Source: Salinibacterium xinjiangense
GTDB lineage: Bacteria > Actinomycetota > Actinomycetes > Actinomycetales > Microbacteriaceae
Assembly (NCBI RefSeq): GCF_014645015.1
Contig: NZ_BMLC01000002.1
Coordinates: 1 to 64,000, forward strand
Length of the DNA: 64,000 bases
Direction of reading: 5' to 3'
Shown here: positions 10,178 to 35,581 of the stretch, in pieces
How the letters are laid out: every line of letters begins with the position of its first letter
How positions within the stretch are numbered: the first letter of the stretch is position 1
Notes under the pieces: model-generated
Databases searched by the model: none
What the model was told of the DNA's origin: nothing
What the model saw: only the letters and a program-made list of their open reading frames with translations
Position numbers and translations under genes: made by a program

Positions 10178-10202
10178 CCGCAGTTGCTTCCAGCGGCTGC
10201 AT

Positions 10203-10276: not shown

Positions 10277-10286
10277 CCGAAAGAGA

Positions 10287-11296: not shown

Positions 11297-11344
11297 TGTG
11301 GTTCAGCCCTCGTCATCACTCGCTAGCGAGTCGTCGAGGCAAAC

Positions 11345-12046: not shown

Positions 12047-12483
12047 ACTTCGAGCGTCGCGTCGAGCGTGATCTCGACTCCGGTGAGCGCCTTGCTGACG
12101 GGGCAGTTCACCTTGGCCGACTCCGCTGCTGCGAGGAAGGCACCGCTGTCGACACCTGTCACCTCGCCGCGAACCGTCAGCTTGATGCTGGTGAGGCGGA
12201 AGCCGCCCGCGGGGTCGGCGCCGAGGGAGACGTCGGCCGAGACATCCAGGGCTTCGATGGTTCCGCCGGCAGCGGCGAGTTCAGCCGACAACTGCATGGC
12301 GTAGCACGAGGTGTGCGCTGCCGCGAGCAGTTCTTCGGGGCTGGTCGATCCGTTGGCCTCGTCGGCCGCTCGCTTGGGGAAAGACACGTCGAACGTGGCG
12401 AGCTGTGAGCTGGTGAGCTCGACCTGCCCGGAGCCTTCCTCGAGGGTTCCGTTCCAGGCGGTGCGTGCGGTACGTGTTGGCAT
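12043..12483 (-). CDS. osmC: OsmC/Ohr-family peroxiredoxin
   Basis: 146 aa, normal length. The two redox cysteines are present: Cys60 in AAHTSCYAMQL and Cys127 in AKVNCPVSKAL. The family reduces organic and fatty-acid hydroperoxides with thiol donors in the cytoplasm. The start ARTAWNGTLEEGSGQVEL looks OsmC-like rather than canonical Ohr. It lies 56 bases downstream of the OhrR-type regulator gene on the same strand, so the two form the usual hydroperoxide-response pair. A hairpin GACCGG/CCGGTC (12511-12526) sits in the gap. Confidence 0.87.
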   Translation of the reverse strand: MPTRTARTAWNGTLEEGSGQVELTSSQLATFDVSFPKRAADEANGSTSPEELLAAAHTSCYAMQLSAELAAAGGTIEALDVSADVSLGADPAGGFRLTSIKLTVRGEVTGVDSGAFLAAAESAKVNCPVSKALTGVEITLDATLEV

Positions 12484-21325: not shown

Positions 21326-21368
21326 CGGGTCACCAGATGGTGCTCGTCTCACCGGCGCCCTCACGAGC

Positions 21369-22049
21369 TCAGTCGGCGATCGCGCCTTCGAGCAGTTCCT
21401 TGATCCTGGAAAGGAACACCGCGCCGGTTGCGCCGTCGACTGCCCGGTGATCGCAGGTGAGTGTCAATTCGGCGATAGGGCGCCATTGCCCTCCGCCCTC
21501 GGTGAAAACGAAGCGCTGACGGGTTGATGCAACCGCGAGAATCGCAACCTGCGGAACGTTCAGAATGGCGTCGAACCTGTCGATTCCGAGCATCCCCAGA
21601 TTGGAGATGGTGAAGGTGCCGCCGGTGACGTCGTTCATAGTGAGGCGCCGAGTTCGCGCACGCTCGACTGCGCCCTTCCTCAGTTCAGCGATACCAGCGA
21701 GAGGAAGCCCCCCGACCCGGTGCAGGTTGGGAACCGTGAGGCCGGCGTCTGTTGCCACGGCAAGTCCGATATTGACCTCATCGAATGTGGTGATGCCGTT
21801 TTCGCCGTAGTGAGAGTTGAGTGCAGGGTGGTCGATGAGGGCTTTGGCGCAGACTGACACGAGCAGGTCAGTGACCGTCGAACCCGGCGCTACCGTTTTG
21901 ACGGTCAGGGCCGTTGTCATGTCGACCTCGACAGTGAGGTGAAATGCGGGCGCCTCCCACGCTGCGATCATCTGACGGGCTGCCGCGCGTCGTATTCCTG
22001 CCAGCGGTTTGGTTGTGCCTTCTACTACGTACGCGTCCGTATTTGCCAT
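21369..22049 (-). CDS. Stand-alone 2-oxoacid dehydrogenase E2 catalytic domain, no lipoyl domain
   Basis: 226 aa from ATG 22049 with AAGGAAG RBS. It matches only the C-terminal acyltransferase domain of E2 proteins: PLAGIRRAAARQMIAAWEAPAFHLTVEVDM, TISNLGMLGIDRFDAILN and the active site CDHRAVDGA with His201 and Asp205. The lipoyl and E1/E3-binding domains that normally precede it (150-200 aa) are missing. A free lipoyl protein is encoded at 26876-27130 in the divergent operon, suggesting that the two halves work together to pass an acyl group from E1 to CoA. The gene is divergent from the FAD dehydrogenase gene. Confidence 0.85.
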   Translation of the reverse strand: MANTDAYVVEGTTKPLAGIRRAAARQMIAAWEAPAFHLTVEVDMTTALTVKTVAPGSTVTDLLVSVCAKALIDHPALNSHYGENGITTFDEVNIGLAVATDAGLTVPNLHRVGGLPLAGIAELRKGAVERARTRRLTMNDVTGGTFTISNLGMLGIDRFDAILNVPQVAILAVASTRQRFVFTEGGGQWRPIAELTLTCDHRAVDGATGAVFLSRIKELLEGAIAD

Positions 22050-22114
22050 AGTTGACTTCCTTGAGAGGTGGGATCGAGGTGTGTGATGGTGCGATCCGGG
22101 CCGAGAAATCGGCA

Positions 22115-22143
22115 TTGACAGCACCGTTCTTCTCCGTCATACT
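22115..22143 (+). promoter_or_regulatory. Promoter of the catabolic operon
   Basis: Consensus -35 TTGACA (22115-22120), 17-base spacer, -10 CATACT (22138-22143). Transcription would begin near 22150, at or next to the ATG at 22151, implying a leaderless or nearly leaderless mRNA. Confidence 0.6.
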
Positions 22144-22146
22144 AAC

Positions 22147-22184
22147 TCACATGAATCACATATGTGAAGAGTTGCACAGGTGTG
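22147..22184. promoter_or_regulatory. Operator array: TCACATATGTGA and CACAGGTGTG
   Basis: A perfect 12-bp palindrome TCACATATGTGA (22156-22167), a second dyad CACAGGTGTG (22175-22184) and a half-site TCACATGA (22147-22154) cluster just after the -10. A similar dyad CACAAATGTG lies after the -10 of the promoter at 29825. The SorC protein encoded in the locus is the natural candidate to bind them. Confidence 0.6.
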
Positions 22185-23860
22185 AGAGTCACAAGGGCGT
22201 TGACTTACCCGGTGTCGATATTCTCATAGTTGGTGGCGGGGTCAATGGGTTGGCTGTCGCGCGTGAAGCGCAAGTTCGCGGATGGTCAGCTACGGTCGTG
22301 GAGGCTGACGACATCGGAGCTGGAACCAGCGGCACGTCCAGTCGGCTCGTGCACGGCGGAGTCAGGTACCTCGAGAACCTCGAGTTTCACCTGGTTCGGG
22401 AATCTCTGAAAGAACGCGAACGCCTCCTCTTCACTGCCCCGCACCTCGTGCAGCCGTACCCCTTACTGATTCCGTTCTACAAGCACAACAGGCGCCACGG
22501 ATTCGTCCTGCGTCTCGGAATGGTGCTGTACGACGTTCTTTCGTTCGACAAGTCCACGCCACTTCATCGCACCTTCAGCAAAACGCGGGTGCAGCAGGCG
22601 TATCCCGGACTGGACTCAAAAGACCTTTACGGTGCGGCCCTTTACTACGACGCCCAAGCGGCGAACACCGAGCGCCTCTGCGTTGAACAGGCTCTCGACA
22701 TCGTTGCGCTCGGCGGCAGCGTGCGAAACCACACCCGCGTCACTGGCCTGACCGAGCAGGCCTCCGGCATCTCCGTGAGTATGTTCGACTCCCTTACGGA
22801 AACTCATTACACACAAACGGCGGCAATCGTGGTCAACGCCGCAGGCCCCTGGGTCGACAGGGTGTTGGGTCTCAGTAAGACGGCGAGCTCGCAGTTGATC
22901 GGCGGTACGAAGGGTTCGCACCTGACCGTTGGTCCATTCCCCGGTGCTCCCTCGACAGGGGTTCACTTCGAGGCAACGAGCGACGGCCGGGCAATTCTGG
23001 TTCTTCCGCTCCCAGACGGCAACTACCTGGTCGGGGCGACCGATATCTTCTTCGAAGGCGATCCGGGCTCGGCCGTCATGTCCGATGAGGAGATCGACTA
23101 CCTCATTTCCGAAGTCAACCGGCTGGTGCCGGCAGCCCACCTCCTCCGGTCGGATGTGCTGCACACGGTGTCAGGCGTGCGGCCGTTGCCGTTCTCGCCG
23201 AAAGCCAAGTCGGCCGCACAGGTCAGCCGCAGCCACCACCTCGTGGCGCACCCCGCCATGTCTGGGCTTTTCAGTATCACGGGCGGTAAACTCACGACCC
23301 ATCGCGCTCTCGGTGAAATGGCGATCAACAAGCTGCAATCCCGCCCAGCAACACCAGGAGCTCCAGGACGGCGACGGTTGCTCTCGCAACTGTTCAATCC
23401 TTCGGCGAGCACTCGTCGGCTCAAACTTCCCGGTGCGCGATCGTCAGACCTGACGCGGTTCACCTCATCGTTTCGGCGGACGACATCGCTTCCCGCTGCG
23501 TCGATCGATCGGTTGCTCGGCCTCTACGGGGTCCGGGTCGAGAGGCTGGAGCAACTGGTGGCGAGTCGTCCTGAGTTGGCGGCAACGCTACCCGGGCGCG
23601 ATGACGCGATTGCGGCGGAGGTGGTGATGGCCGTGCAGGACGAATTCGCTCGCACCCTCACCGACATCGTCGCCCGTCGACTCCTGCTGGTCTGGAATGA
23701 CGACGCTGGCCTGGATTCGCTGGACGGCGTGGCCGCTGTTGCCGCGCAGGAACTGGGCTGGGACCAGGCTCAGATCGATCGCGAGATCGCCTCGTACCGC
23801 GACTGGATCCGTCTGCGTCGCCCAGCGGCCTATGAACCCGATGCCAGCATTGCCCGCTGA
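22151..23860 (+). CDS. GlpD-like FAD-dependent polyol-phosphate dehydrogenase
   Basis: 569 aa from ATG 22151; a TTG at 22172 is the other possible start. VDILIVGGGVNGLAVAREAQVRGWSATVVEADDIGAGTSGTSSRLVHGG is the FAD site and glycerol-3-phosphate dehydrogenase signature (broken by position here: residues about 23-70). KGSHLTVG, SGVRPLPF and ITGGKLTTHRALGEMA follow. Relatives oxidise glycerol-3-phosphate or, in erythritol catabolism (EryB), a tetritol phosphate. Neighbouring FGGY kinase and SorC regulator resemble that kind of pathway. First gene of a long operon with aldolase, E1, lipoyl protein and kinase. Actual substrate unknown. Confidence 0.82.
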   Translation: MNHICEELHRCESHKGVDLPGVDILIVGGGVNGLAVAREAQVRGWSATVVEADDIGAGTSGTSSRLVHGGVRYLENLEFHLVRESLKERERLLFTAPHLVQPYPLLIPFYKHNRRHGFVLRLGMVLYDVLSFDKSTPLHRTFSKTRVQQAYPGLDSKDLYGAALYYDAQAANTERLCVEQALDIVALGGSVRNHTRVTGLTEQASGISVSMFDSLTETHYTQTAAIVVNAAGPWVDRVLGLSKTASSQLIGGTKGSHLTVGPFPGAPSTGVHFEATSDGRAILVLPLPDGNYLVGATDIFFEGDPGSAVMSDEEIDYLISEVNRLVPAAHLLRSDVLHTVSGVRPLPFSPKAKSAAQVSRSHHLVAHPAMSGLFSITGGKLTTHRALGEMAINKLQSRPATPGAPGRRRLLSQLFNPSASTRRLKLPGARSSDLTRFTSSFRRTTSLPAASIDRLLGLYGVRVERLEQLVASRPELAATLPGRDDAIAAEVVMAVQDEFARTLTDIVARRLLLVWNDDAGLDSLDGVAAVAAQELGWDQAQIDREIASYRDWIRLRRPAAYEPDASIAR

Positions 23861-23913
23861 CTCGCCCACTGCCAACCCAACCAACTATCAATGATGAAAT
23901 TGGAGCACGTCAC

Positions 23914-24810
23914 ATGCCACTAGTTCCCCTCCCCGAGCTTCTCAGCCACGCCGGAGCCAATAAGTACGCCGTCGGGTATTTCGAGTCCTGGGATGTCTAC
24001 AGCCTCCAGGCGACCGTCGCGGCTGCGGAAGCCAGCAACTCGCCGGTGATTATCGGCATCGGTGGCCTCTCGTGCAGCCATGAATGGTTGCAGTCCGGAG
24101 GCATTGAGATTTATGGCGCCATCGCCGCCTCTCTCGCCGCCCGGTCTTCCGTGCCCATCTCCACACTCTTCAACGAAGCAGACAGCTTTCGCGAGGCGGC
24201 GGGTGGCCTCGGCGCCGGGTTCAACTCGGTCATGATGCACACGCAGGGGTGGGACCAGGACAAACTGCTTGCGGACACTGCCTCCCTCGTGGCGGCATCG
24301 CACGCCGTCAACGTGGCAGTCGAGGGTGAAATCGGCGCACTGGCTGAGATCAAGGATGGCGTCCTCGACGCTGCCGGCGCCTCATACACGTCCCCCGAAG
24401 CGGCAGAGCTGTTCGTGCGTGAGACCGGCGTCGACTGTCTGGCCGTTGCCGTAGGCAACGTGCATTTCGTCACGGGCAGCCATGTTCCCACTGTGCAGGT
24501 CGATCTCATCAAGCAGATCGGCGAGGCTGTGAACGTGCCACTGGTGTTGCACGGCGGCTCGGGAACTCCCGACGACCAGACCCAGCGCGCCGTTCAGGCT
24601 GGCATCACCAAGATCAACGTCGGCACCAAGCTCAAGTTCGTCTACGGCAACGCTCTTGTCGCCGAATTGGGAAGTACGGTCGATGACCCCAACCTTGCCT
24701 TCGGTTCCCGGTTCGAGGCCGACGTGAACTCACGGGCTGGCGTGGCGCTGGCGAAAGAGATCCAGCGACTGATGGACGTTTTCGGTTCGACCGGCCAGGC
24801 AAAGCGCTGA
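23914..24810 (+). CDS. Class II aldolase homologue with altered active-site motif
   Basis: 298 aa, related to fructose/tagatose-bisphosphate aldolases: NSPVIIGIGG, EGEIGALAEIKDGV, VGNVHFVTG (His ligand), VPLVLHGGSGTPDDQ (His ligand) and ITKINVGTKLK (phosphate and Na site). The motif VPVALHLDHG that gives the catalytic Asp and one zinc ligand His in the family is VPISTLFNEA here (Leu85 to Ala89), so Asp becomes Asn87 and His becomes Glu88. The N-terminal part (GYFESWDVYSLQATV) is also unusual. It may bind metal through Glu or catalyse another reaction. Coupled to the E1 gene by a one-base overlap. Confidence 0.8.
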   Translation: MPLVPLPELLSHAGANKYAVGYFESWDVYSLQATVAAAEASNSPVIIGIGGLSCSHEWLQSGGIEIYGAIAASLAARSSVPISTLFNEADSFREAAGGLGAGFNSVMMHTQGWDQDKLLADTASLVAASHAVNVAVEGEIGALAEIKDGVLDAAGASYTSPEAAELFVRETGVDCLAVAVGNVHFVTGSHVPTVQVDLIKQIGEAVNVPLVLHGGSGTPDDQTQRAVQAGITKINVGTKLKFVYGNALVAELGSTVDDPNLAFGSRFEADVNSRAGVALAKEIQRLMDVFGSTGQAKR

Positions 24811-26876
24811 TGGCGGGCGAGCACTTCGGGTTGGATGAGAGTCTCCACCTGCTCGAAGAGATGGTTCTGATCCGCCAGTTCGAGCAGGTTGCCTACCTGC
24901 GGTATCTCCAGGGGGAAATCCCCGGCACCCTGCACCAATCCCAGGGTCAGGAAGCCGTCGCGGTCGGAGTCTGTTCTCTGCTGCGCAAAGAAGACTGGAT
25001 CACCTCTACCCATCGTCCCCACGGACACGCCCTGGCCAAGGGGCTTGACCCGTCAGCAGGCATGGCCGAGATCTACGGCCGGGCGACAGGCTGCCTCGGT
25101 GGTCGGGGTGGCTCGATGCATCTCGGTGACCCCGAGCTCGGCATCCTGCCTTCGATCGCCATCGTCGGCGGTGGCATCACCATCGCGCCCGGAATTGCGA
25201 CAGCGTTGAAGATGAAGGGCACCGATAACGTCGTGGTCTGCTTCTTCGGCGACGGGGCTGTGAACGAAGGAGCCTTCCATGAAGGCGTGAACTACGCGGC
25301 AGCTTTCAACCTGCCGGTGGTCTTCGTGTGCGAGAACAACATGTACGGCGCGTCTACTCCATTCCACGAGACGACCCGCAACATCAACGTCGCCTCAAGG
25401 GGAGCTGCGTACGGCATTCCCTCGGAACAGGTCGACGGCATGGACATCCGCGCAGTCCGCGAGTCGGCCGCGAAAGCCATCGAAACGGCCCGCAGCGGCA
25501 AGGGACCTGTGCTCCTGGAATACCTGACCTATCGTTACGTCGGTCACAGCAGGGGCGATGCCCGCGGATACCGCACAAAGGACGAAGAGGCTTACTGGCT
25601 CGCGAAAGACCCCATCGCAACCTACGGTGACTCGCTCATCAAGGACGGGATAGCAAGCGAAGAGCAGGTGAAGGAGGCCACGTCGCGAGGTAAAAAGCGC
25701 ATCTCGGTCGCCCTCAAGCACGCCCAGAATGCTCCATGGCCCGACCCGGTGACAGCGCTCGCTCCCAACATCATGTTCGGTAATCCACCCCAGGTGGTCG
25801 AAGGTGCCGGTCCTCTTGAACTCGGGCCCGAGGAGCGGACCAAGTCGATAGCCGAGGCAATCCGCGAAACCCTGGATGCCGAGCTCGCGCTCGACCCGAC
25901 TCTCATCCTGCTCGGCGAAGACGTCGGCGTGCCAGGCGGCTTCGGTGGGGCCTTCGGGGTCTACCAGGGACTTGCCGAGAAATACGGCCGCGATCGGGTG
26001 ATTGATACCCCGATCAGCGAGAAGGCCATCATCGGTGCCTCCATCGGTGCGGCGATCGGGGGGCTGCGCACAGTGCCCGACCTGCAGTACGCCGACTTCG
26101 TGTTCGAGGCGATGGATGAGTTGGTCAACGAGGCTGCGAAGCAGCGCTACATGTCCAATGGGAAGCTGACCATTCCGATGGTGTTGCGGTGCCCGGTCGG
26201 CGCGTCCCAGCGCGGCGCCCAGCACGCCCAGCACCCTGAAAGCTTCTTCATGCACGTCCCCGGAATCAAGGTGCTGTGCATCTCGGATCCGTATACCGCA
26301 AAGGGCGCCCTGACCGCGGCCATTCGCGACGACGACCCGGTGCTCGTGTTCGAGCACAAGCTGCTCTATGGCGCCAAGCGCAAGGAGGCGGGCTCGATCG
26401 ACACCAAGGCATTCGTGCCAGAGGAGAATTTCGCGCTGCCGGTCGGACAGGCGAGAGTGCGCCGATTCGGCACGGACGCGACGATCGTAGCTACGTTCAC
26501 CGAGCTTTACGCGGCGCTCGAATTGGCCGAGAAGCTGGCAGAAGAGGGAATCGAGATCGAGGTCATCGACCCGGTGTGGCTTTCGCCGTTCGACTGGACC
26601 ACCGTGACGAACAGCGTCAGGAAGACTGGTCGCCTGGTGATAGCCCACGAAGCACACCTCACAGGTGGCTGGGGTGCAGAAGTGAGTGCTCGAATTTCGG
26701 ACGAGCTCTACACTGACCTCAAGGCTCCGGTGCGCAGGGTCGCCAGTCGGGATATCCCGATGCCGTTCTCCCCGCCGCTCGAGGCAGCTGTCTTGCCTCA
26801 GAAGGAAGATATCGAGGCGGCCTTGCGGTCCGTCCTTGCCATGGATCACAGACGCGAAAAATTAGTGGAGGCGTAA
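24810..26876 (+). CDS. TPP-dependent dehydrogenase E1, alpha and beta subunits fused
   Basis: 688 aa. Residues 1-330 are an E1-alpha of the acetoin/pyruvate/branched-chain type, with the TPP motif GDG (147-149) to NN (176-177), and GHSRGDARGYRTKDE. From about residue 350 an E1-beta follows: ALDPTLILLGEDVGVPGGFGG, TPISEKAIIGASIGAA, QYADFVFEAMDELVNEAAKQRYMS and a transketolase C-terminal domain. The two are separate genes in most bacteria. The enzyme would decarboxylate a 2-oxoacid or cleave an acyloin and load the acyl group on the lipoyl protein encoded next (one-base overlap). Sequence resembles acetoin dehydrogenase more than PDH, but the substrate is inferred. Confidence 0.87.
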   Translation: MAGEHFGLDESLHLLEEMVLIRQFEQVAYLRYLQGEIPGTLHQSQGQEAVAVGVCSLLRKEDWITSTHRPHGHALAKGLDPSAGMAEIYGRATGCLGGRGGSMHLGDPELGILPSIAIVGGGITIAPGIATALKMKGTDNVVVCFFGDGAVNEGAFHEGVNYAAAFNLPVVFVCENNMYGASTPFHETTRNINVASRGAAYGIPSEQVDGMDIRAVRESAAKAIETARSGKGPVLLEYLTYRYVGHSRGDARGYRTKDEEAYWLAKDPIATYGDSLIKDGIASEEQVKEATSRGKKRISVALKHAQNAPWPDPVTALAPNIMFGNPPQVVEGAGPLELGPEERTKSIAEAIRETLDAELALDPTLILLGEDVGVPGGFGGAFGVYQGLAEKYGRDRVIDTPISEKAIIGASIGAAIGGLRTVPDLQYADFVFEAMDELVNEAAKQRYMSNGKLTIPMVLRCPVGASQRGAQHAQHPESFFMHVPGIKVLCISDPYTAKGALTAAIRDDDPVLVFEHKLLYGAKRKEAGSIDTKAFVPEENFALPVGQARVRRFGTDATIVATFTELYAALELAEKLAEEGIEIEVIDPVWLSPFDWTTVTNSVRKTGRLVIAHEAHLTGGWGAEVSARISDELYTDLKAPVRRVASRDIPMPFSPPLEAAVLPQKEDIEAALRSVLAMDHRREKLVEA

Positions 26877-27130
26877 TGGAAGCGATTATCATGCCAGCGC
26901 TCGGTCAGACCAGCGACGAGGCCTATATCCAGGAATGGTATTTCAAGGAAGGCGACACCGTCGAGATGGGCGACCCCCTTCTCAGCGTCGAGACTGATAA
27001 AGCCCAGCTTGATGTCGAGTGCGTTGCTGACGGCATACTGCTCAAGATCGTCGCGGCCGCGGAGACCAGCGTCACCGCGGGCACCGTCATCGCTTATATC
27101 GGTGACGAAGGCGAGACCGCCCCAGAATAG
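26876..27130 (+). CDS. Free-standing lipoyl-domain protein
   Basis: 84 aa consisting of one biotinyl/lipoyl domain: IMPALGQTSDEAYIQEWYFKEGD, GDPLLSVETDKAQLDV with lipoyl-Lys42, and GTVIAYIGDEG. It starts within the E1 stop (TAATG). Lipoyl domains normally form the N-terminus of E2; here it is a separate small carrier, like the H protein of glycine cleavage. It should swing between the fused E1 and the divergent E2 catalytic protein. No dihydrolipoyl dehydrogenase is in the locus, so the cell-wide E3 presumably reoxidises it. Confidence 0.88.
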   Translation: MEAIIMPALGQTSDEAYIQEWYFKEGDTVEMGDPLLSVETDKAQLDVECVADGILLKIVAAAETSVTAGTVIAYIGDEGETAPE

Positions 27131-27176
27131 CGGCGTGTACGGCAGCAACAAACGGTTTCTACAAGGAAGTAGTACT

Positions 27177-28676
27177 TTGCCTGGCACCCAAATAATTGCC
27201 ATCGACTGCGGCACGCAGTCTGTGCGTTGTCTCATCGTCGACGTCGACACTGGTGCACACAGTGTCGGCGCGACAGAGTCGATAGCGCTCAGGCCGATGG
27301 TGGGCAACCGCATCGAGGTTGACCCGGGGCTTATTGCCGCGGCAACTATCAGGGTGCTGCGATCAACGCTCGCCCTGTGCCCGACTCCCGTAAGCATCGC
27401 CATCACCAACATGCGCGAGACGGCCATCGCCTGGGATAAGAAGACCGGGGAGCCGGTACACGACGGCATCATGTGGATGTCCCAGCAGAGCCAGAATATT
27501 GTCGACCGCTGGAGCGACGCAGGCTTGTCTGAGCAGATCCGGGTCAAGACCGGCCTGTCGAACCATACTTTCTTCTTCGGATCCAAAATCGCCTGGCTTC
27601 TCGATGCGCGCCCGGACATCGGAGCAGATGCAGCAGCGGGAAGAGTGGCGGTCGGGACTGTTGACTCCTGGCTGCTCTTCGTGTTGACCGGCGGGGCCAC
27701 CCACGCCACGGATGTTTCTAACGCTTCCCGCTATCAGCTTTTGAATCTTCAGGATCTCGAGTGGGATGGCGAGTTGGCGGAGGCGCTGGGAATCCCACTC
27801 GCGGCCCTGCCGGCTATTCACCCCACCAGCAGCGACTTCGGTTTCACCGACGTCGGTATCGTGGGAGCGCGAATTCCCATCACGGGCATGATCGGCGACC
27901 AGCAGGCCTCGCTGCTGGGGCACGACTGTGTGTCTGTTGGTGACGCGAAAGCTACCTTTGGCACCTCCTGCGTAGTCGGGGTCAATCTGGGAGCCGAAGC
28001 GACGCTGGGTGAGGGTCTCGTGACCAGCGTTGCCTGGTCTCACGCGAATGAGTCAGTCGTCTACGAAATGGAGGGATCAGCCTTCCATTCCGGGTTTACC
28101 GTGACCTGGCTGGACCGCATCCTCCAGTTGCCGGCCAACTCAAACGCGCTGGTGACGCGAAGCACTGTGCCACCGGAGGGGCGTGTCGCGGTCGTGCCGT
28201 CGTTCACAGAGCTCGGCGCTCCCCGCTGGCTGAAGGGCCGGGGGGCATCAATTCATGGCCTGACAATGGACACCGATGCTCGTGACATCCTTCGGGCAGG
28301 CATCGAGAGTATGGCCTTCCAGGCTTTCGACCTCGTGTCGGCAGTTCCGAATGCGCAGCGTCATGGCCCGCTGTCAGTCGACGGTGGCGCGGCCAGCAAT
28401 GACTACATGTGCCAACTCCTGGCAGATCTGGCCAATCGCGTCATCGTACGACCGCCGAGTCGAGAGTTGACTGGATTCGGTGCGGCGCGAGCAGCCGCTG
28501 CCTTCCTCGGTATTGACATTCCGGCAAGTTCGAGAGAAGAAGGGGCGTGTGCCCAGTTCGTCCCCGCGGCGGACAGGTCGTACGCCGAAGGTGGATTTGA
28601 GCACTGGCAGAAAGTCACGCAGTCGACTTTAGAAGCCGGCTCAAGGGAGGCTCGAGTCCCCGAGTTGCTAGGCTAG
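27177..28676 (+). CDS. FGGY-family carbohydrate kinase
   Basis: 499 aa from TTG 27177, chosen because AAGGAAG lies seven bases upstream and the family's usual start (IIAIDCGTQSVRCLIVD) follows at once. Other FGGY marks: MWMSQQ, TGMIGDQQASLLGHDC, ATFGTSCVVGVN, VVPSFTELGAPRW and LSVDGGAASNDYMCQLLADL. It would phosphorylate a polyol or sugar delivered by the ABC importer downstream. It resembles glycerol/erythritol kinase-like members, but FGGY specificity cannot be read by eye. Confidence 0.87.
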   Translation: MPGTQIIAIDCGTQSVRCLIVDVDTGAHSVGATESIALRPMVGNRIEVDPGLIAAATIRVLRSTLALCPTPVSIAITNMRETAIAWDKKTGEPVHDGIMWMSQQSQNIVDRWSDAGLSEQIRVKTGLSNHTFFFGSKIAWLLDARPDIGADAAAGRVAVGTVDSWLLFVLTGGATHATDVSNASRYQLLNLQDLEWDGELAEALGIPLAALPAIHPTSSDFGFTDVGIVGARIPITGMIGDQQASLLGHDCVSVGDAKATFGTSCVVGVNLGAEATLGEGLVTSVAWSHANESVVYEMEGSAFHSGFTVTWLDRILQLPANSNALVTRSTVPPEGRVAVVPSFTELGAPRWLKGRGASIHGLTMDTDARDILRAGIESMAFQAFDLVSAVPNAQRHGPLSVDGGAASNDYMCQLLADLANRVIVRPPSRELTGFGAARAAAAFLGIDIPASSREEGACAQFVPAADRSYAEGGFEHWQKVTQSTLEAGSREARVPELLG

Positions 28677-28711
28677 GGACTCACAAATATGGGCGCATGG
28701 GGGATAGTGCA

Positions 28712-29677
28712 ATGGCTCGAATGAGGGAAGAGCGATTGGCGCACGCTGCTTTTCTCTACTACATCCAGGGGCAGTCGCAAGCCGATATCGCGGCCACCCT
28801 GGGTGTCACTCGTTCCAACGTCTCCCGAATGCTCACCGCAGCCCGCGAGCAGTACATCGTTCGTTTTGAAATCGCTTATCCATTGGACCGCGACCCTGTC
28901 CTCGAGCAAAGGCTGACTGCCAGTTTTGCCGCGGAGGGCGTGCGTGAAGTAATAGTCGTGCCCACCCGCGCATCAGGAGTGGGGCGGGCGAGCCACGGGC
29001 TGCTGAACGTCGGCCAGGCTTGTTCGGCCTGGCTCGACATCAACCTGCGAGATCAGGATCGTCTTGGGCTGTGCTGGGGCAGCACGATTGAGGCCATGGT
29101 TGAAAGCTCTCACTTCGACAGGCGCGTCGATGTGGAAGTGGTGCAGATTGCCGGTGAGCTCAGTATCGATTCGCGCTTCTCCGGCCACGATCTCGTGCGA
29201 AACCTGGCCCAAAAGCTCGGTGGGCGCTACCGCTACTTCAATGCTCCGGCGGCCATCCGCGACGAGGAGACGGCCATAGCGCTTGCGCAGACGCCGCAGG
29301 TCGCCGAAGCGCTCGCGGCTGCTCGCGGCTGTGACGTCGCTATCGTCGGGGTTGGCCAATTCGCCAGCGGCAGCTCTGACCTGTTTCTGAAGCGGGCCAA
29401 CGTGACTCCGGAAGAGACGCAGGAGGCGCTGGATCTCGGCGCAGTCGGACAGATCTGCGGCCGTTTCTACAATGACAAAGGCGATCAGATCGACCTTGCG
29501 ATAAGTCGCCGCACCCTGTCGCTCGACCTGGACGAAATCACAGCGATCCAGACCGTCGTCGTGGTGGCCAGCGGCAGCGAGAAGGCGAAAGCGGTGAGAG
29601 CTGCGATCCGGGGTGGGTTTGTGCAGGTTCTGATAGTCGATGATTCACTGGCGCAAGGCCTCGCCGGACTCCAGTGA
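28712..29677 (+). CDS. SorC-family sugar-sensing transcriptional regulator
   Basis: 321 aa from ATG 28712, which has GGGGGA seven bases upstream; ATG 28697 would add five residues. N-terminal helix-turn-helix (QSQADIAATLGVTRSNVSRMLTAAREQ, about residues 20-46, given here in two parts) and a long ligand domain: GLCWGSTIEAMVE, VEVVQIAGEL, YRYFNAPAAI and ALDLGAVGQICGRFYNDKG. SorC proteins respond to sugar phosphates; EryD of the erythritol operons belongs here. Position inside the operon and the CACAnnTGTG dyads at both promoters suggest local control. Confidence 0.87.
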   Translation: MARMREERLAHAAFLYYIQGQSQADIAATLGVTRSNVSRMLTAAREQYIVRFEIAYPLDRDPVLEQRLTASFAAEGVREVIVVPTRASGVGRASHGLLNVGQACSAWLDINLRDQDRLGLCWGSTIEAMVESSHFDRRVDVEVVQIAGELSIDSRFSGHDLVRNLAQKLGGRYRYFNAPAAIRDEETAIALAQTPQVAEALAAARGCDVAIVGVGQFASGSSDLFLKRANVTPEETQEALDLGAVGQICGRFYNDKGDQIDLAISRRTLSLDLDEITAIQTVVVVASGSEKAKAVRAAIRGGFVQVLIVDDSLAQGLAGLQ

Positions 29678-29824
29678 CGTAACGGCGAGCCAGCCGCTTC
29701 CCCTGTGTGCTCGTGCTCGCGTGCAAACGTGCCCGGTCAGTGGCGTCCATGGCTCAATCCAGTGTCCATGTCGGGGAGCTGTTACTAGAAAGTCTCATTT
29801 TGGTAGCGTCTCTTGCGGGGGAGG

Positions 29825-29852
29825 TTGACATCGGGCATCTCCGCATTACACT
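29825..29852 (+). promoter_or_regulatory. Promoter for the dehydrogenase-transporter operon
   Basis: TTGACA (29825-29830), 16-base spacer, TACACT (29847-29852). Same type as the promoter at 22115, and like it followed closely by a CACAnnTGTG dyad. Confidence 0.5.
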
Positions 29853-29871
29853 TCTCACAACGGTGATCGGG

Positions 29872-29894
29872 TGCACAAATGTGAATCCCTTCAC
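29872..29894. promoter_or_regulatory. Operator candidate CACAAATGTG plus GTGAA/TTCAC dyad
   Basis: CACAAATGTG (29874-29883) overlaps a second dyad GTGAATCCCTTCAC (29881-29894). The first shares arms CACA/TGTG and the trailing GAA with TCACATATGTGAA at 22156. It would sit at about +15 from the predicted start point, a roadblock position. Confidence 0.55.
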
Positions 29895-29930
29895 TTGGTC
29901 GACATCAGTTTGATGAAGCAAAACCACAAA

Positions 29931-29995
29931 TCGGTATCGATATTGCAGGAACTTTCTACCAATCGGGAAGTTTCGGCATATCGGTGTCGACACTG
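29931..29995. repeat. Two 15-bp palindromic boxes exactly 50 bp apart
   Basis: TCGGTATCGATATTG (29931-29945) and TCGGTGTCGACACTG (29981-29995) match at 12 of 15 bases. Both are centred on TCGA; positions 6 and 11 change together (A/T to G/C), preserving symmetry. The 50-base period is about five helical turns. Confidence 0.65.
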
Positions 29996-30105
29996 ACAAC
30001 GCTGTCGGGCCCATGCTCAGCCGCACTCAGGTCGATACCCGTTTCAGTGGGAAGCAATCCAGATCCGGCGCGAGCCGGTGGGACCGGGATGGAGTGTCAA
30101 AGCAG

Positions 30106-31128
30106 ATGCGCGCTGTGGTTTTTGAATCAGCAGGAAAAATGAGTCTCGTAGATCGGCCTGAGCCGACTGCTGGTGCCAAGGAAGTTGTCGTCGAAGTCGC
30201 GGCAGTGGGTGTGTGTGGAACCGATACGCATGTCTTTGACGGAGAGTTCGAGGGAACGGTTTTCCCCCTGGTGCCCGGGCATGAGGCAACCGGGGTGGTC
30301 GTTGCGATCGGCGAAGGCGTGAGCCATGTGGCACTGGGCGATCACGTTGCCGTGAACCCCTCAACCACCTGTGGTGAATGTGAATTCTGCCTCACCGGCA
30401 AAGCCAATCTCTGCAGATTCTGGAACGGGCTCGGCGTCGTGGCCTCTGACGGCGCATCCCAGCAGCGCTTCACGGCACCAGCAGCCAACGTCTTCAAGCT
30501 CCGGCCGGAAACTGACATCTACCACGCCGCGCTCATCGAGCCGCTGGCCTGTGCCATCCACGCCTACGACCTCCTTCCTCGCAGGATGGGTGAGCACTAC
30601 CTCGTCTACGGTTCTGGGACCATGGGCCTGTTGATGGCCCAGCTGGCTCCCCGTGCGGGAGCCGCCAGCGTGACAATCATCGACGTCAATGAGCACCGCC
30701 TCGAGACGGCAAAAGAAGTAGGCGTGACGCAGGCCTTCACCAGCGCCAATGAATCCGATCGTGAGACGTGGGATGTGGTCATAGACTGCACCGGCAACCT
30801 CCGTGCCATCGAGGATGGTCTGCCCCGTGTCAAGCCCGGCGGTACTTTCCAGCATTTTGGCGTTGCGCCGGCTGACGCGTTCGCGTCATATTCCCCGTTC
30901 AGGGTCTATCGCGATGAGATCTCCGTCGTTGGCACAATGGCGGTCCTGAATTCCTTCGGTCGGGCAGTTGAGATGTTCGAGGCGGGCGCCATCAACAGCG
31001 CCGCCATGATCAGCCATTCCTTCAGCCTCGAGGACTACGCCGAAGCGCTGGACATGTTCCGCAAGGGCACCGGCCGAAAACTGCAGATCAGACCCAACGA
31101 CTCAGGATCAAAGGTGTTCCACGGATGA
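30106..31128 (+). CDS. Zinc-dependent medium-chain alcohol/polyol dehydrogenase
   Basis: 340 aa from ATG 30106. Catalytic zinc ligands Cys37 (GVCGTD), His59 and Glu60 (PGHEATG) and four structural-zinc cysteines 89, 92, 95 and 103 are present; NAD site YGSGTMGLLMAQLA follows. Layout is that of sorbitol, threonine or polyol dehydrogenases. First gene of the operon with DUF2291 and the ABC importer, so it likely oxidises the imported polyol or an intermediate. It overlaps the next gene by four bases. A GTG at 30094 is an alternative start. Confidence 0.85.
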   Translation: MRAVVFESAGKMSLVDRPEPTAGAKEVVVEVAAVGVCGTDTHVFDGEFEGTVFPLVPGHEATGVVVAIGEGVSHVALGDHVAVNPSTTCGECEFCLTGKANLCRFWNGLGVVASDGASQQRFTAPAANVFKLRPETDIYHAALIEPLACAIHAYDLLPRRMGEHYLVYGSGTMGLLMAQLAPRAGAASVTIIDVNEHRLETAKEVGVTQAFTSANESDRETWDVVIDCTGNLRAIEDGLPRVKPGGTFQHFGVAPADAFASYSPFRVYRDEISVVGTMAVLNSFGRAVEMFEAGAINSAAMISHSFSLEDYAEALDMFRKGTGRKLQIRPNDSGSKVFHG

Positions 31129-31760
31129 AGAACATGTCACAAAAGCAGCGGCGTGGCGTCTGGGCCATCGTGCTCATCGTCGTGCTCGTTGCGATCAGTC
31201 TGTCGACCAAGGTCATCTCCGGCGCTGAACTCACAGCAAACCAGCCGGTGGAATTCAACTCCGAACAGTTCGGGGCTGAGCATTTCCCTGAAGTGTCTGC
31301 CGCGATCATCGAGACCGCGGCCCCGCTGGGTGACGTGGCCACGGCCCTGGCTGCCGACCAGGCGGGTGCCGTTGGGAAATACGGTGTTGTGGAGGGCACG
31401 TCGTTTCCGGTGTTCCCCGTGACGTTCACCGCTGTCGCCGGGCCGGCGGATGCAGCTGGCTTCGTTCCGTTCACTGTTGACGGCGTTCCCTCTGCCATCA
31501 CTGTGCGGATCCAGACCGGCCCGGCCATTGGCGGAACCGATCTGCGTGACGCCACAGGCACCATCCACTTCGCCGACTTCACTAACCAGATCGAATACCA
31601 GGATGCTGGAGTCGCCCTGAACAACGAGCTCAAGACGCAGGTGCTCGCCAAGGTGAAGGCGGCAGACCTGAATGGGAAGACGGTCACTGTGACCGGTGCC
31701 TTTCAGCTGGTCAACCCGGGGGCGTACACAATCACCCCCGTCGCGATCGAGGTGAACTAG
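31125..31760 (+). CDS. DUF2291-family membrane-anchored protein
   Basis: 211 aa. One N-terminal hydrophobic helix (WAIVLIVVLVAISLSTKVI, about 13-31) anchors an extracytoplasmic domain: GTDLRDATGTIHFADFTNQIEYQ (written here in part) and ADLNGKTVTVTGAF. DUF2291 proteins are repeatedly found beside ribose-type sugar ABC transporters; their task is unknown, perhaps assisting the binding protein. The ATGA overlap with the dehydrogenase and two-base gap to the ATPase gene put it firmly in this operon. Confidence 0.8.
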   Translation: MKNMSQKQRRGVWAIVLIVVLVAISLSTKVISGAELTANQPVEFNSEQFGAEHFPEVSAAIIETAAPLGDVATALAADQAGAVGKYGVVEGTSFPVFPVTFTAVAGPADAAGFVPFTVDGVPSAITVRIQTGPAIGGTDLRDATGTIHFADFTNQIEYQDAGVALNNELKTQVLAKVKAADLNGKTVTVTGAFQLVNPGAYTITPVAIEVN

Positions 31761-31762
31761 CG

Positions 31763-33286
31763 ATGGTGATGCAGGGTGAGGTTCTCCTGAGTGCACGCTC
31801 GGTCGTTAAACGATACGGCGGCGTGCACGCTCTCAAAGGGGTCAATTTCGAGGTGCACCGGGGCGCCGTCACCACGCTTTTCGGAGAGAATGGCGCCGGA
31901 AAGTCGACGCTCATGAAAATCCTTTCGGGCGTTGAGGTCCCCACATCAGGACAGCTGATCCTCGACGGTCAGCCCGTTGAATTCACTTCGACTGTCGACG
32001 CCCGCGAAAAAGGCATCTCGATCATCCACCAGGAACTCAGCCTTGCGCCGAACCTGTCGGTCCGCGACAACATTTTCATGGGCCGCGAGATCACGACCAA
32101 TCGCGGCACCGTCGATTATGCAGCAGAAGAAAAGGCCGTGCGAGCCCTCATGGAGGGCCTCGAAGAGAACATCAGTCCGAAGACGCTGGTCTCCGAGTTG
32201 CGCCTCGGCCAGCAGCAGATCGTCGAGATCGCTCGGGCACTGTCGGTCAATTCGCGCATCCTGATCATGGATGAGCCAACCTCGGCGCTCAGCGCGAACG
32301 AAGTGGAGGTCCTGTTCAGGGTCATCCACGATCTCACCGCATCCGGAGTGTCTATTGTCTACATCTCGCACCACCTTGAGGAGGCCCTGCAGATCACGGA
32401 CTTCGCGGTGGTTCTGCGTGATGGTGAGATCGTGGCGCAGGACGAGGCCGCCAACATCGACCTCGTGTGGATCGTCTCGAACATGGTCGGTCGCAATTTC
32501 GACCTGGGCACACCGCCCACGGGGTACGAGTTCGGTGAGACCGTGTTGCAGGTCAAGCAGGTCAGCGTTGCAGATCCGGCGAACCCCGACCGCTACCTGG
32601 TCAACAACCTCACACTCGATATCCGCGCTGGTGAAATTGTGTGCGTCTACGGCCTGATGGGTGCCGGCCGCACGGAACTGCTCGAAGCCGTGGCTGGCCG
32701 TGGTTCCATAGCGTCCGGTGAGGTTCTGCTCAATGGCATGGACGTGGCGAAACTGTCGATAGCCCAGCGCATAGAACGCGGTCTTGGACTGGTGCCCGAA
32801 GATCGTCAGCGCGACGGCCTCGTGCAGACAATGACAGTCGGGCACAACTTGTCCCTCGCCAGCCTGCAGTCGCTGGTGAAGGGGGTGCTAATGTCTTCCA
32901 CTTCGGAATCCAGGCTCGTTGATAACCAGATCGCGAAGGTGCACGTCAAGACAAACGGCGGGGGAGCCGCTATCGGCTCTCTCAGTGGAGGCAACCAGCA
33001 AAAGGTCGTCATCGGCAAGATGCTGGCCACCAACCCGACAGTGATTCTGCTCGACGAGCCGAGTCGTGGCATCGATGTCGGGGCGAAGGCGGAGGTTTTT
33101 GGTCTTCTCTCGTCGCTGGCCAGCCAGGGTGTTGCGGTGCTCTACTCAACCTCCGAAGTCGGCGAATGCCTCAGCATCGCACATCGCATCGTGGTCATGA
33201 ACAAGGGTCGGATCCTGGCATCCTTCGGGCCTAACGTCACCAAAGAACAGATAATGTCCGCGTCCGGCGAAGCCGTACTCGCCTAG
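31763..33286 (+). CDS. Sugar ABC transporter ATP-binding protein (RbsA type)
   Basis: 507 aa with two ABC domains. Domain 1: Walker A GENGAGKST, Q-loop, signature ELRLGQQQIVEIARAL, Walker B ILIMDEPTSAL. Domain 2: degenerate Walker A GLMGAGRTE, signature LSGGNQQKVVIGKML and VILLDEPSRGIDVGAK. This tandem is typical of ribose/xylose/polyol importers of the CUT2 family. It energises uptake by the permease and binding protein encoded next. Confidence 0.92.
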   Translation: MVMQGEVLLSARSVVKRYGGVHALKGVNFEVHRGAVTTLFGENGAGKSTLMKILSGVEVPTSGQLILDGQPVEFTSTVDAREKGISIIHQELSLAPNLSVRDNIFMGREITTNRGTVDYAAEEKAVRALMEGLEENISPKTLVSELRLGQQQIVEIARALSVNSRILIMDEPTSALSANEVEVLFRVIHDLTASGVSIVYISHHLEEALQITDFAVVLRDGEIVAQDEAANIDLVWIVSNMVGRNFDLGTPPTGYEFGETVLQVKQVSVADPANPDRYLVNNLTLDIRAGEIVCVYGLMGAGRTELLEAVAGRGSIASGEVLLNGMDVAKLSIAQRIERGLGLVPEDRQRDGLVQTMTVGHNLSLASLQSLVKGVLMSSTSESRLVDNQIAKVHVKTNGGGAAIGSLSGGNQQKVVIGKMLATNPTVILLDEPSRGIDVGAKAEVFGLLSSLASQGVAVLYSTSEVGECLSIAHRIVVMNKGRILASFGPNVTKEQIMSASGEAVLA

Positions 33287-33306
33287 ATCTCAGGAGGAGA
33301 CAACTC

Positions 33307-34428
33307 ATGAGCACGTCAAAACCCACACGCCTGGTTTCGCTTTTCAATGACGGGTTCGATATTCGAGCCACCTTGTTGAGGGGGAGGGCGTGGTTTGCGC
33401 TCATCATCATCATCATCGTTTTCTCGGTGTTATCACCCAACTACCTGTCACTGAACAACATCCTTCAGATGTCAGCGCACGTCGCCGTCTTCGCCATCCT
33501 GTCGATGGGCATGTTGATGGTCATCCTGAACGGCGGTATCGACCTGTCCGTCGGTTCTACTCTCGGGTTTGCCGGCATCATCGCTGGTTCGCTCATGCAG
33601 GGAGTCGACATACCGGCGCTTGGTATCAAGTTGTTCCCAGCAGTGTGGGTCGTCGTCTTGATCGCCGTTGCCTGTGGCGCAGGGATCGGTTTCATCAACG
33701 GGGTGCTGATCTCCCGATTCAGGGTCGCCCCCTTCGTGGCCACGCTGGGCATGCTCTACGTGGTGCGCGGCGCAGCTCTCCTCATTACCGGCGGCCTCAC
33801 GTTTCCAAAACTGCAGGGATCGGCCGACCTCGGAAACACAGGCTTCAACTGGCTTGGCTTCAATCGGGTCTTCGGGGTCCCGGTGGGCGTCGTGATCATG
33901 CTCGTGATTGCCATCCTGCTCAGCGTCCTCCTCAACCGCACGGTCTTCGGCCGCTGGATTTATGCGTCAGGTGGCAACAATCGCGCGGCCGAGCTGTCGG
34001 GCATCCCGGTCAAGAAGGTGCAGATTCGCGTATATGTCATCTCGGGCATGTGTGCAGCCATCGCCGGGGTGATCATCGCTTCCGAGCTCACCAGTGCCAG
34101 TCCGGTCGCTGGTGAGACCTTCGAACTCACCGCTATCGCCGCGGTAGTCATTGGTGGGGCAAGTCTCGCCGGAGGTATCGGAGCCATCCGCGGCACCCTG
34201 CTTGGCGCCTTCGTGATCGGCTTCCTCTCAGACGGACTCGTGATCATCGGCGTCTCCGAGTACTGGCAGATGATCTTCAAGGGCGGCGTGATCGTGCTGG
34301 CAGTCATGCTGAACGCCATTCACTACCGGGGGCGCAAGAGAGGCCCCGACTCTCCACCCCCCACAGCTTCCTTCGCCGCAGTCTCGTCGGCTCCCGCCGA
34401 ACCGAGGGCAGAGAAGAACGTCGCCTAG
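33307..34428 (+). CDS. Sugar ABC transporter permease (RbsC type)
   Basis: 373 aa from ATG 33307 with AGGAGGAGA RBS. About ten hydrophobic helices; family marks are MGMLMVILNGGIDLSVGSTLGF, NGVLISRFRVAPFVATLGMLYVVRG, RAAELSGIPVKKVQ and GGASLAGGIGAIRGT (first two given in abbreviated spans). Likely a homodimer forming the CUT2 channel. The C-terminal tail is Pro/Ala-rich and cytoplasmic. Confidence 0.92.
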   Translation: MSTSKPTRLVSLFNDGFDIRATLLRGRAWFALIIIIIVFSVLSPNYLSLNNILQMSAHVAVFAILSMGMLMVILNGGIDLSVGSTLGFAGIIAGSLMQGVDIPALGIKLFPAVWVVVLIAVACGAGIGFINGVLISRFRVAPFVATLGMLYVVRGAALLITGGLTFPKLQGSADLGNTGFNWLGFNRVFGVPVGVVIMLVIAILLSVLLNRTVFGRWIYASGGNNRAAELSGIPVKKVQIRVYVISGMCAAIAGVIIASELTSASPVAGETFELTAIAAVVIGGASLAGGIGAIRGTLLGAFVIGFLSDGLVIIGVSEYWQMIFKGGVIVLAVMLNAIHYRGRKRGPDSPPPTASFAAVSSAPAEPRAEKNVA

Positions 34429-34466
34429 CAACCTGGGCGACTACCCATCACCGAGAGGAAAGCAGT

Positions 34467-35447
34467 ATGTTTCGCAAAATAGCAGCAACGCTTGCCGCAG
34501 TAACCGTTGTTGTCGCGATGGCCGGATGTGCCGGCGCGACCCCTACCCCCGATGACAACGCCGCGCCAGCCTCCGATGGCGGAGGGTTGATCTCGATCAT
34601 CGTCAACGACCCGGCCAACCCGTACTGGACTGCAGAGGGCGACGCGGCCAAGGCCGAGGCTGAGAAACTTGGCTACACAGCTAACGTGTCAGCGCATAAG
34701 GGTGATTCCAAGCTCGAGAGCGACCTGATCGACACCGCCATCACCAACAAATCGGTCGCGATCATCATCGACCCGGCCGACGCCGATGGGTCGATCGGTG
34801 CGGTTCAGAAGGCGACGGATGCGGGAATCCCCGTCTTCCTCGTGAACGCCGAGATCAACGAGGAGGGCATTGCAAAGGGCCAGCTCGTGTCCAACAATGC
34901 ACAGGGCGCGGCACTGGGCGCGACGGAGTTCGTCAAAGCCACCGGTGGCAAGGGCATCTACGTCGAACTCAAGGGCAAGCCCAGTGACAACAACGCCGCG
35001 ACCCGGTCCAACGGTTATGCATCGGTGCTCTCGCAGTATCCGGATCTGAAGTTGGTTGGCCAGGAAGTTGCAAACTGGGACACCAAGGAAGCTCACGACA
35101 AGACCCAGACGTTGCTCACTGCTCACCCGGAGATCACCGCGATCATCGCAGGAAATGACACGATGGCACTGGGTGCGATCGCTGCCCTCAAGGAAGCCAG
35201 CCGTACCGACGTCATCGTCGGTGGATTCGATGGTTCCCCGGATGCTGCTGCGGCGGTGGCTGACGGCTCCATGGCCTACACGGTTCTCCAGCCCGTCACG
35301 ATCTACGCGACTGCAGCTGTGACCCAGGCTGATGCCTTCCTCAAGTCCGGCAAGACCGGGGTTGCCACCGAGAAGCAAACTTTCGATTGCTTCCTGATCA
35401 ACAAGGACAACATCGCCAAGTACGGCTCGTTCAGCATCAACCCTTAA
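34467..35447 (+). CDS. Sugar/polyol ABC transporter substrate-binding lipoprotein (RbsB type)
   Basis: 326 aa. Lipoprotein signal with lipobox AGC (VVAMAGCAGA) near residue 22. The periplasmic-binding-protein-like fold of the ribose group follows: LISIIVNDPANPYW, AIIIDPADADGSIGAVQKA, GIPVFLVNAEI, NNAQGAALGATEFVKA, AIIAGNDTMALGAIAALKEA, GGFDGSPDAAAAV. It captures the substrate outside the membrane for the permease. A large hairpin follows 3 bases after the stop, closing the operon. Confidence 0.92.
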   Translation: MFRKIAATLAAVTVVVAMAGCAGATPTPDDNAAPASDGGGLISIIVNDPANPYWTAEGDAAKAEAEKLGYTANVSAHKGDSKLESDLIDTAITNKSVAIIIDPADADGSIGAVQKATDAGIPVFLVNAEINEEGIAKGQLVSNNAQGAALGATEFVKATGGKGIYVELKGKPSDNNAATRSNGYASVLSQYPDLKLVGQEVANWDTKEAHDKTQTLLTAHPEITAIIAGNDTMALGAIAALKEASRTDVIVGGFDGSPDAAAAVADGSMAYTVLQPVTIYATAAVTQADAFLKSGKTGVATEKQTFDCFLINKDNIAKYGSFSINP

Positions 35448-35450
35448 CAG

Positions 35451-35500
35451 ATGCCCGGGCCGGAATCGACCAGATGACTGGTGGGTTCCGGCTCGGGCAT
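35451..35500 (+). terminator. Operon-end hairpin
   Basis: ATGCCCGGGCCGGAA (35451-35465) pairs with TTCCGGCTCGGGCAT (35486-35500) with a single G-T wobble, forming a 15-bp stem around a 20-base loop. There is no T-run, so it may act as a 3-prime stabiliser or a GC-rich actinobacterial terminator. Confidence 0.7.
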
Positions 35501-35581
35501 TCCCTGATCGCAGACGGTTGGCGCCCACTCCACCCCGGCCGGTCGTCACCGCCGCAGTTGTGGAATAGCTGTTACCGGGCC

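Follow-up and report, generated by a model that had tools for sequence, protein, structure and literature searches.

Swinging-arm complexes, in which a lipoyl group is carried on a covalent tether, serve as the usual example of substrate channelling. Here, we describe a locus of Salinibacterium xinjiangense (Microbacteriaceae) that encodes the parts of such a complex as separate proteins: E1 (thiamine-diphosphate-dependent dehydrogenase), a free lipoyl protein and E2 (acyltransferase) reduced to its catalytic domain. The locus lies in a 64,000-nt stretch of contig NZ_BMLC01000002.1 (assembly GCF_014645015.1, positions 1 to 64,000, forward strand), hereafter called the window. A lineage that keeps E1 and the lipoyl domain, without a tether, a binding domain or a fixed E2, offers a natural test of the importance of tethering.

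The E1, lipoyl and E2 genes

The coordinates of the three genes and their neighbours are given in Table 1. A first, sequence-only reading of the locus had proposed that E1 alpha and beta are fused, that the lipoyl domain is a free protein of 84 aa, that the E2 catalytic domain is a separate, divergent gene, and that the E1/E3-binding domain is missing; profile searches bear out each of these points. E1 is a single open reading frame (ORF) of 688 aa, with the Pfam domains E1_dh (PF00676) at residues 17–313 and Transket_pyr and Transketolase_C (PF02779, PF02780) at residues 346–668, and with a thiamine diphosphate motif (GDG...NN) at residue 147. Fusion of alpha and beta is not rare among its relatives (18 of 80 loci). 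The lipoyl protein has its own ORF and matches Biotin_lipoyl (PF00364) with 64.8 bits against a cut-off of 22.1. Its Lys42 lies in the sequence VETDKA, and the DKA motif is a sign of lipoylation, not of biotinylation. An hmmscan search of this protein returned only PF00364 and a sub-cut-off PF13533 match, without a match to the glycine-cleavage H protein family (GcvH, PF01597); membership of that family was rejected on these grounds. The aldolase-like and E1 genes, and the E1 and lipoyl genes, each overlap by one base, so that the three are probably translated jointly.

The E2 gene lies on the opposite strand, 2.8 kb before E1, with the GlpD-like and aldolase-like genes in between. Its sole Pfam match is 2-oxoacid_dh (PF00198), with neither a lipoyl nor an E3_binding match; a longer ORF with a GTG start (22124) adds 25 aa. 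Genome-wide, E3_binding (PF02817) was matched three times, each time within a full-length E2 frame away from the locus. The E2 looks intact: His201 and Asp205 of the HxxxDG motif are invariant in 20 of 20 aligned E2s, its AlphaFold model (built with 19 sequences) has a mean pLDDT (predicted local distance difference test) of 91.2, and its best Foldseek matches are E2 cores (E 7e-24, TM 0.80). The highest-ranking NCBIfam models are of pyruvate dehydrogenase (PDH) type, both below their curated cut-offs: TIGR03182 (PDH E1 alpha) for E1, with 338 bits against 394, and TIGR01349 (PDH E2) for E2, with 160 bits against 445.

The C-terminal tail bears on the size of the E2 assembly. In E2 cores a C-terminal 3-10 helix makes the trimer–trimer contact, and actinobacterial AceF is reduced to a trimer by a C-terminal insertion, according to PMC10415282. 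The last six residues of the split E2s hold on average 1.6 hydrophobic residues (n=9) versus 2.9 in the other E2s (50 of 58, namely those with a tail of at most 32 residues; eight tethered E2s with longer tails were left out). The split E2 is thus predicted to be small and probably trimeric.

Conservation of the split architecture

Relatives of the window E1 were searched for in a genome collection, and 80 of 137 confirmed loci were analysed; the search required exact 8-residue words, which makes the counts lower bounds. Nine loci had an E1 at 61–91% identity, eight of them at 69% or more: Cryobacterium, a Salinibacterium metagenome-assembled genome (MAG), Paeniglutamicibacter, Arthrobacter agilis, two near-identical Conexibacter-type loci, a Solirubrobacterales MAG and a Chloroflexi MAG. 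The E1 clade comprises 11 loci (loci are designated L and genomes G): the window, L029–L036, L117 (an Arthrobacter plasmid) and L122 (genome G078), with members from Micrococcales and from Thermoleophilia, the class of Conexibacter.

Throughout this clade (11/11) a free lipoyl gene lies directly 3′ of E1, and the lipoyl proteins are free, 82–93 aa long and keep Lys42 in all ten that were aligned. The E2 consists of the catalytic domain only in each of the ten loci where one was detected; in L035, the Chloroflexi MAG, no E2 was found in 13.4 kb. In L029, L032, L034 and L137 (the latter from the Arthrobacter plasmid), the gap between E2 and the preceding gene is 3–29 bp, leaving no room for a lipoyl domain ahead of E2. 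The next relatives of E1, from Jiangella (61%, L066) and Clostridium vitabionis (51%), carry full-length E2s. In the 58 other scored E2s, among them the OdhA-like L113, the open frame extends 141–364 aa upstream of the E2 domain, a measure of length and not of lipoyl content.

Judged from these sequences, the untethered architecture is conserved and is not a wreck: the clade keeps E1, the lipoyl protein and E2 apart, and all three look intact. The co-occurrence of the three genes in other genomes, which the sequence-only reading had asked for, therefore holds across the E1 clade, while its description of a "dismantled" complex, if taken as decay, fails against the invariant E2 residues and the conserved Lys42. 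We likewise rejected a lipoyl or binding domain hidden by a frameshift or a wrong start, given the short gaps before E2 in four relatives and the genome-wide search for the binding domain.

Probable exchange of the E2

In a tree of E1 beta (88 rows; matches covering fewer than 250 positions were dropped), the 11 clade loci fall on one side of a branch (100/99), with Jiangella next. The E2 tree looks different. It holds 67 rows, left from 73 matches after those covering at most 150 model positions were dropped (L137 is outside the tree), and its nine split E2s need three changes. They form a Micrococcales group, a Thermoleophilia group and the E2 of G078, which groups with the SucB-type E2 of the window genome (99/99). 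Their best NCBIfam models differ as well: TIGR01349 for the window, TIGR01348 for L034 and TIGR02927 for L123.

A single clade of all nine split E2s was rejected by the approximately unbiased (AU) test (p-AU 1.2e-6), and a single clade of eight (without L123) less strongly (p-AU 0.026), the eight-row set having been picked after inspection of the tree and the E2 branches being long. A single origin of the split E2s is thus rejected with these two caveats, and for the first two groups (stems 1.05 and 1.81) fast divergence of one E2 could still be the explanation. Because three E2 lineages surround one conserved E1/lipoyl pair, the acyltransferase looks exchangeable around that pair.

E3 and lipoylation genes

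The sequence-only reading had also noted that E3 (dihydrolipoyl dehydrogenase) is missing. This stands for the window, where no E3-type Pyr_redox_dim match was found, and does not extend to the system as a whole: an E3 above the curated cut-off lies beside E2 in L029 and L032, the Arthrobacter plasmid (L137) has an annotated lpdA beside E2, and in G078 an E3 (431.5 bits), LipA and E2 follow in a row. LipA is also found near E2 in L032. No E3 was found beside E2 in the window, L030, L031, L033, L034 and L036. The window genome has five PF02852 matches, and one of the four scored passes the Lpd cut-off (451 against 408.8 bits); it is found in L112, beside SucB. The genome also has LipB/LplA-type ligases and, in L112, a LipA-like gene. 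With E3 in the loci of relatives and an Lpd in this genome, we rejected the view that the system lacks E3 altogether; as the locus has none of its own, it most likely uses the housekeeping E3.

The surrounding cluster and its regulation

The neighbouring genes (Table 1) point to the breakdown of a sugar or polyol phosphate; no hdr genes were found among the scanned cluster genes. The GlpD-like enzyme scores 308 bits against a cut-off of 360 (PRK12266), so that its substrate may differ from glycerol-3-phosphate; we would liken it to EryB. The FGGY kinase scores 394.9 bits with TIGR01311, against a glycerol kinase cut-off of 590.

Table 1. Genes and regulatory features of the cluster in the window
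Feature	Position	Strand	Basis and remarks
E2 acyltransferase, catalytic domain only, 226 aa	21369-22049	-	PF00198, 211 bits; ATG at 22049
Sigma-70-like promoter TTGACA-17-CATACT, GlpD-like operon	22115-22143	+	10/12 consensus positions
GlpD-like flavin adenine dinucleotide (FAD) polyol-phosphate dehydrogenase	22151-23860	+	PF01266, PF16901; start just 3′ of promoter
Putative SorC-type operator TCACATATGTGA, palindrome, E2/GlpD divergent region	22156-22167	.	exact match
Class II aldolase relative, Asn87-Glu88	23914-24810	+	PF01116
Fused E1 alpha/beta, thiamine-diphosphate dehydrogenase	24810-26876	+	688 aa; Pfam/NCBIfam
Free lipoyl protein, 84 aa, Lys42 in VETDKA	26876-27130	+	PF00364
FGGY kinase, GlpK-like	27177-28676	+	PF00370/PF02782; TTG start 27177 chosen among candidates
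SorC/DeoR-type sugar-binding regulator	28697-29677	+	PF04198
Promoter-like TTGACA-16-TACACT and operator-like GCACAAATGTGA, before alcohol dehydrogenase/transport operon	29825-29852; 29873-29884	+	
Zinc alcohol (polyol) dehydrogenase	30013-31128	+	PF08240, PF00107
DUF2291 lipoprotein	31125-31760	+	PF10054
Sugar ATP-binding cassette (ABC) transporter ATPase, XylG/RbsA-like	31763-33286	+	profile matches
Sugar ABC transporter permease	33307-34428	+	PF02653
RbsB-like sugar-binding protein	34467-35447	+	PF13407; RbsB model 125.6 bits against cut-off 337

Both hexamers of the GlpD-side promoter are kept in all five aligned loci. The putative operator TCACATATGTGA, assigned to SorC from the gene neighbourhood only, is found at the same place in L029, L030, L032 and L137 without mismatches and in L031 with one. 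Across nine cluster sequences (191,100 bases), TCACATATGTGA occurs in six exact copies versus 0.003 expected from base composition, and in 16 copies versus 0.12 when up to one mismatch is allowed, where copies in relatives are homologous and not independent, and L117 and L137 come from a single plasmid. Further copies lie upstream of transporter genes (exact in L029; one mismatch in L031, L032 and L117). The operator-like GCACAAATGTGA of the window has two mismatches and is weak alone, as 6 of 100 shuffles match the window's number of copies. Taken together, the putative operator would tie the parts of the cluster to one another. The GlpD-like gene, with its ATG at 22151, may lack a leader, the initial codons doubling as TCACATATGTGA.

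Acquisition of the cluster

The cluster (21326–35581 in the window, ~14 kb) forms an insert between murB and the gene at 35582–36415. All five congeners searched have murB within about 2 kb of the homologue of the latter gene, and no match to E2, the GlpD-like enzyme, the sugar-binding protein or E1 was found in the interval; in G407 the gap between the aligned ends of the two genes is 46 bp. As these comparisons indicate, the cluster is one acquired unit.

The related plasmid of Arthrobacter sp. FW306-07-I (NZ_CP084551.1; L117/L137) is typed as conjugative in PLSDB. One end of its record has GlpD and a divergent E3–E2 pair, and the opposite end has a cut aldolase, E1, lipoyl protein, kinase and SorC; although the record is listed as linear, the two ends presumably join. 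On this plasmid, thiC (thiamine synthesis) adjoins the E2–E3 pair of the cluster.

The aldolase relative and the possible substrate

The aldolase relative has Asn-Glu where the class II structures 8q58, 8q57 and 3q94 have Asp-His in profile alignments, and the same is seen in single-sequence alignments to 3q94 and 7ncc. The Asp/His pair presumably serves catalysis and metal binding. The model (pLDDT 92.4) matches class II aldolases in Foldseek, first of all the sulfofructose-phosphate aldolase SqiA (8q57). The Asn-Glu pair is present in all ten clade-type aldolases aligned, including that of Jiangella; an eleventh, from L109, has the usual LDH stretch and is one residue shorter there, so that MAFFT places Leu-Asp opposite Asn-Glu.

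Clade members vary in their kinases. A short-chain dehydrogenase/reductase and a xylulokinase-like kinase replace the GlpK-like kinase in L033, L034 and L036, and G078 (17 kb scanned) has a xylulokinase-like kinase and yields neither a GlpD nor a GlpK-like match. These variants suggest two kinds of entry, both leading to a ketose phosphate.

L109 is a second cluster in the window genome (C5:80000-98000, 2720–12270). It encodes E1 alpha, E1 beta, a free 80-aa lipoyl protein, a GlpD-like enzyme, an FGGY kinase, a class II aldolase and SorC, together with a protein weakly like 3-keto-5-aminohexanoate cleavage enzyme (68 bits, below cut-off). Its E1 is of a different lineage from that of the window.

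The Sinorhizobium plasmids L118 and L119 carry SorC, an NAD(P)H-dependent oxidoreductase, E1 alpha/beta, a full E2, lpdA, and lipA or a class II aldolase; on one of them, E1–E2–lpdA is followed by the class II aldolase. They would represent another sugar-type lipoate-dependent locus. The oxidoreductase may be DXR-like; as it has no NCBIfam match at E 1e-60, breakdown of methylerythritol at these loci is only a tentative lead.

With E1 and an aldolase recurring together in L109 and Sinorhizobium, the window E1 may act on a sugar fragment, pyruvate or another 2-oxo acid. A sugar fragment is possible, which we put forward tentatively; pyruvate is unlikely.

Relation to known lipoate-dependent systems

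Like PDH, branched-chain 2-oxoacid dehydrogenase and acetoin dehydrogenase, the system has E1 alpha/beta with the thiamine diphosphate motif, an E2-type lipoyl domain, an HxxxDG E2 with the known fold, and an E3 in the genome. It differs in that the lipoyl domain and E2 are on separate polypeptides, no binding domain is found, and the genes lie in a sugar-phosphate cluster. With neither a tether nor the PF02817 binding domain found, we call it a variant, not a member, of the canonical 2-oxoacid dehydrogenase complexes.

OdhA (KGD), the actinobacterial two-in-one 2-oxoglutarate dehydrogenase, offers a second comparison together with AceF: as described in PMC10415282, the OdhA E2 catalytic domain depends on lipoyl groups supplied in trans and the AceF E2 is reduced to a trimer, whereas OdhA is a fused E2–E1 that uses the lipoyl groups of AceF, and the window E2 and carrier are free-standing. 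OdhA is the closest precedent for supplying an E2 in trans.

Small lipoyl proteins that carry their group between separate enzymes are represented by GcvH and by LbpA of Hdr-like sulfur oxidation (PMC6067878). The window protein would do the same; it differs in being a PF00364 protein without a GcvH match, and in having E1 and E2 as neighbours, not glycine cleavage or Hdr genes. The functional likeness to a shuttle carrier drawn by the sequence-only reading is supported: the system would work like a shuttle carrier (H protein, LbpA) built from PDH-family parts.

Two Phaeobacter plasmids (L124, L125) are similar in having a lipoyl-containing protein after E1 alpha/beta, a separate E2 and lpdA, and differ in that the lipoyl domain is inside a protein of about 430 aa and the E2 has 292 aa. 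They also encode a semialdehyde dehydrogenase, and show another way of splitting lipoyl domain and E2.

Proposed mechanism and alternative explanations

We lean, with modest confidence, towards a lipoate-dependent E1–E2–E3 oxidation system whose lipoyl domain acts as a free, diffusible carrier. A sugar alcohol or ketose would be imported by the transporter of the cluster, phosphorylated by the FGGY kinase and oxidised by the GlpD-like enzyme to a ketose phosphate, which the aldolase-like enzyme would cleave into triose phosphate and a carbonyl fragment of small size. E1, with thiamine diphosphate, would take this fragment, or a 2-oxo acid or hydroxyketone derived from it, and reductively acylate the lipoyl group on Lys42 of the free protein. 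The carrier would then move to the separate E2 (predicted to be small and probably trimeric), where the acyl group would pass to coenzyme A (CoA), and housekeeping dihydrolipoyl dehydrogenase would re-oxidise the carrier and make NADH. An E2 without a binding domain could be exchanged while E1 and carrier stay.

The cluster thus hints that sugars or sugar alcohols may be broken down by a route that forms an acyl-CoA and includes an aldolase relative whose active site is altered. Five lipoate-dependent systems had been counted as characterised, and an Hdr-linked one was added, according to PMC6067878 (2018). More tentatively, the locus may represent a further one: an acyl-CoA-forming step on sugars or sugar alcohols with a diffusible carrier, an E1 acting on an aldehyde or hydroxyketone released by the aldolase, and an E2 replaced at least twice because its sole contact is the carrier. 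Among the matches listed from the open-licence literature searched, none described a cluster of this kind; a negative limited to open-licence papers is weak evidence of novelty.

Several points weigh against the proposed carrier system. Its substrate, lipoylation, assembly and flux are matters that we infer, and no assayed member of such clusters was found among the same literature matches. The Asn-Glu pair in place of Asp-His makes retro-aldol cleavage doubtful, and Jiangella (L066) shares the aldolase variant yet has a full-length E2, so that this variant and the split are not strictly linked. The tail hydrophobicity of split and other E2s overlaps (two of nine split E2s have three hydrophobic residues), being lower on average only. 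L122, L035 and L109 yielded no copy of the operator, and in L109 the E2 frame is broken, leaving a remnant (10761–11078, a partial domain in an open frame), while its E1 and lipoyl genes are open. Furthermore, the cluster is rare: the E2 has a match at 70% identity in one of 26 other genomes of the genus (G413, with match coordinates equal to those of L030, the Salinibacterium MAG; the best listed match of the other genomes is at most 40%), the lipoyl protein at 60% or more only in G078 among 395 others of an order sample of 396 genomes, and the start of the aldolase at 60% or more in none of 118 others of a phylum sample.

Two alternatives survive best, and we regard both as unlikely. In one, direct contacts among E1, E2 and E3 replace the binding domain and give one tight complex that holds the lipoyl protein locally; the E1 and E2 domains of OdhA pack directly with the lipoyl group in trans, as stated in PMC10415282. 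Against this, neither E1 nor E2 has a further Pfam domain, and a conserved E1–E2 interface is hard to square with clade E2s from three lineages. In the other, the locus is an ordinary PDH serving the operon, with sugar converted via triose phosphate to pyruvate for E1 and the split being a neutral accident. The PDH-type NCBIfam models that rank first for E1 and E2 agree with this, but neither score reaches its curated cut-off, E1 and the aldolase-like gene overlap in a neighbourhood that recurs, and the split is kept across several orders and two classes.

A further possibility, that the free lipoyl protein and the separate E2 are not partners, is improbable; housekeeping tethered E2s would then serve the carrier, or the E2 would borrow their lipoyl domains. 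The window genome does encode three full-length E2s, the E2 gene lies outside the E1 operon, and L109 retains open E1 and lipoyl genes with no more than an E2 remnant; yet 10 of 11 loci have E2 within or beside the cluster, and the window E2 shares the divergent operator region. Very improbable is a lipoate-independent, transketolase- or carboligase-like E1 with lipoyl protein and E2 as leftovers, as might be seen in Atribacteria L085 and L086 (no lipoyl or E2 match in 12–14 kb), since the clade keeps both Lys42 and the catalytic residues of E2, and E3, in some cases with LipA, accompanies E2 in relatives.

Other loci with E1 in a similar setting

A Thermus thermophilus plasmid (L120, 7998–10185) has E1 alpha/beta followed by a free 82-aa lipoyl protein and genes of a TRAP (tripartite ATP-independent periplasmic) transporter; its 8 kb flanks carry no annotated E2. 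In the Atribacteria loci L085 and L086, E1 alpha/beta lies between alcohol dehydrogenases, an FGGY kinase and SorC.

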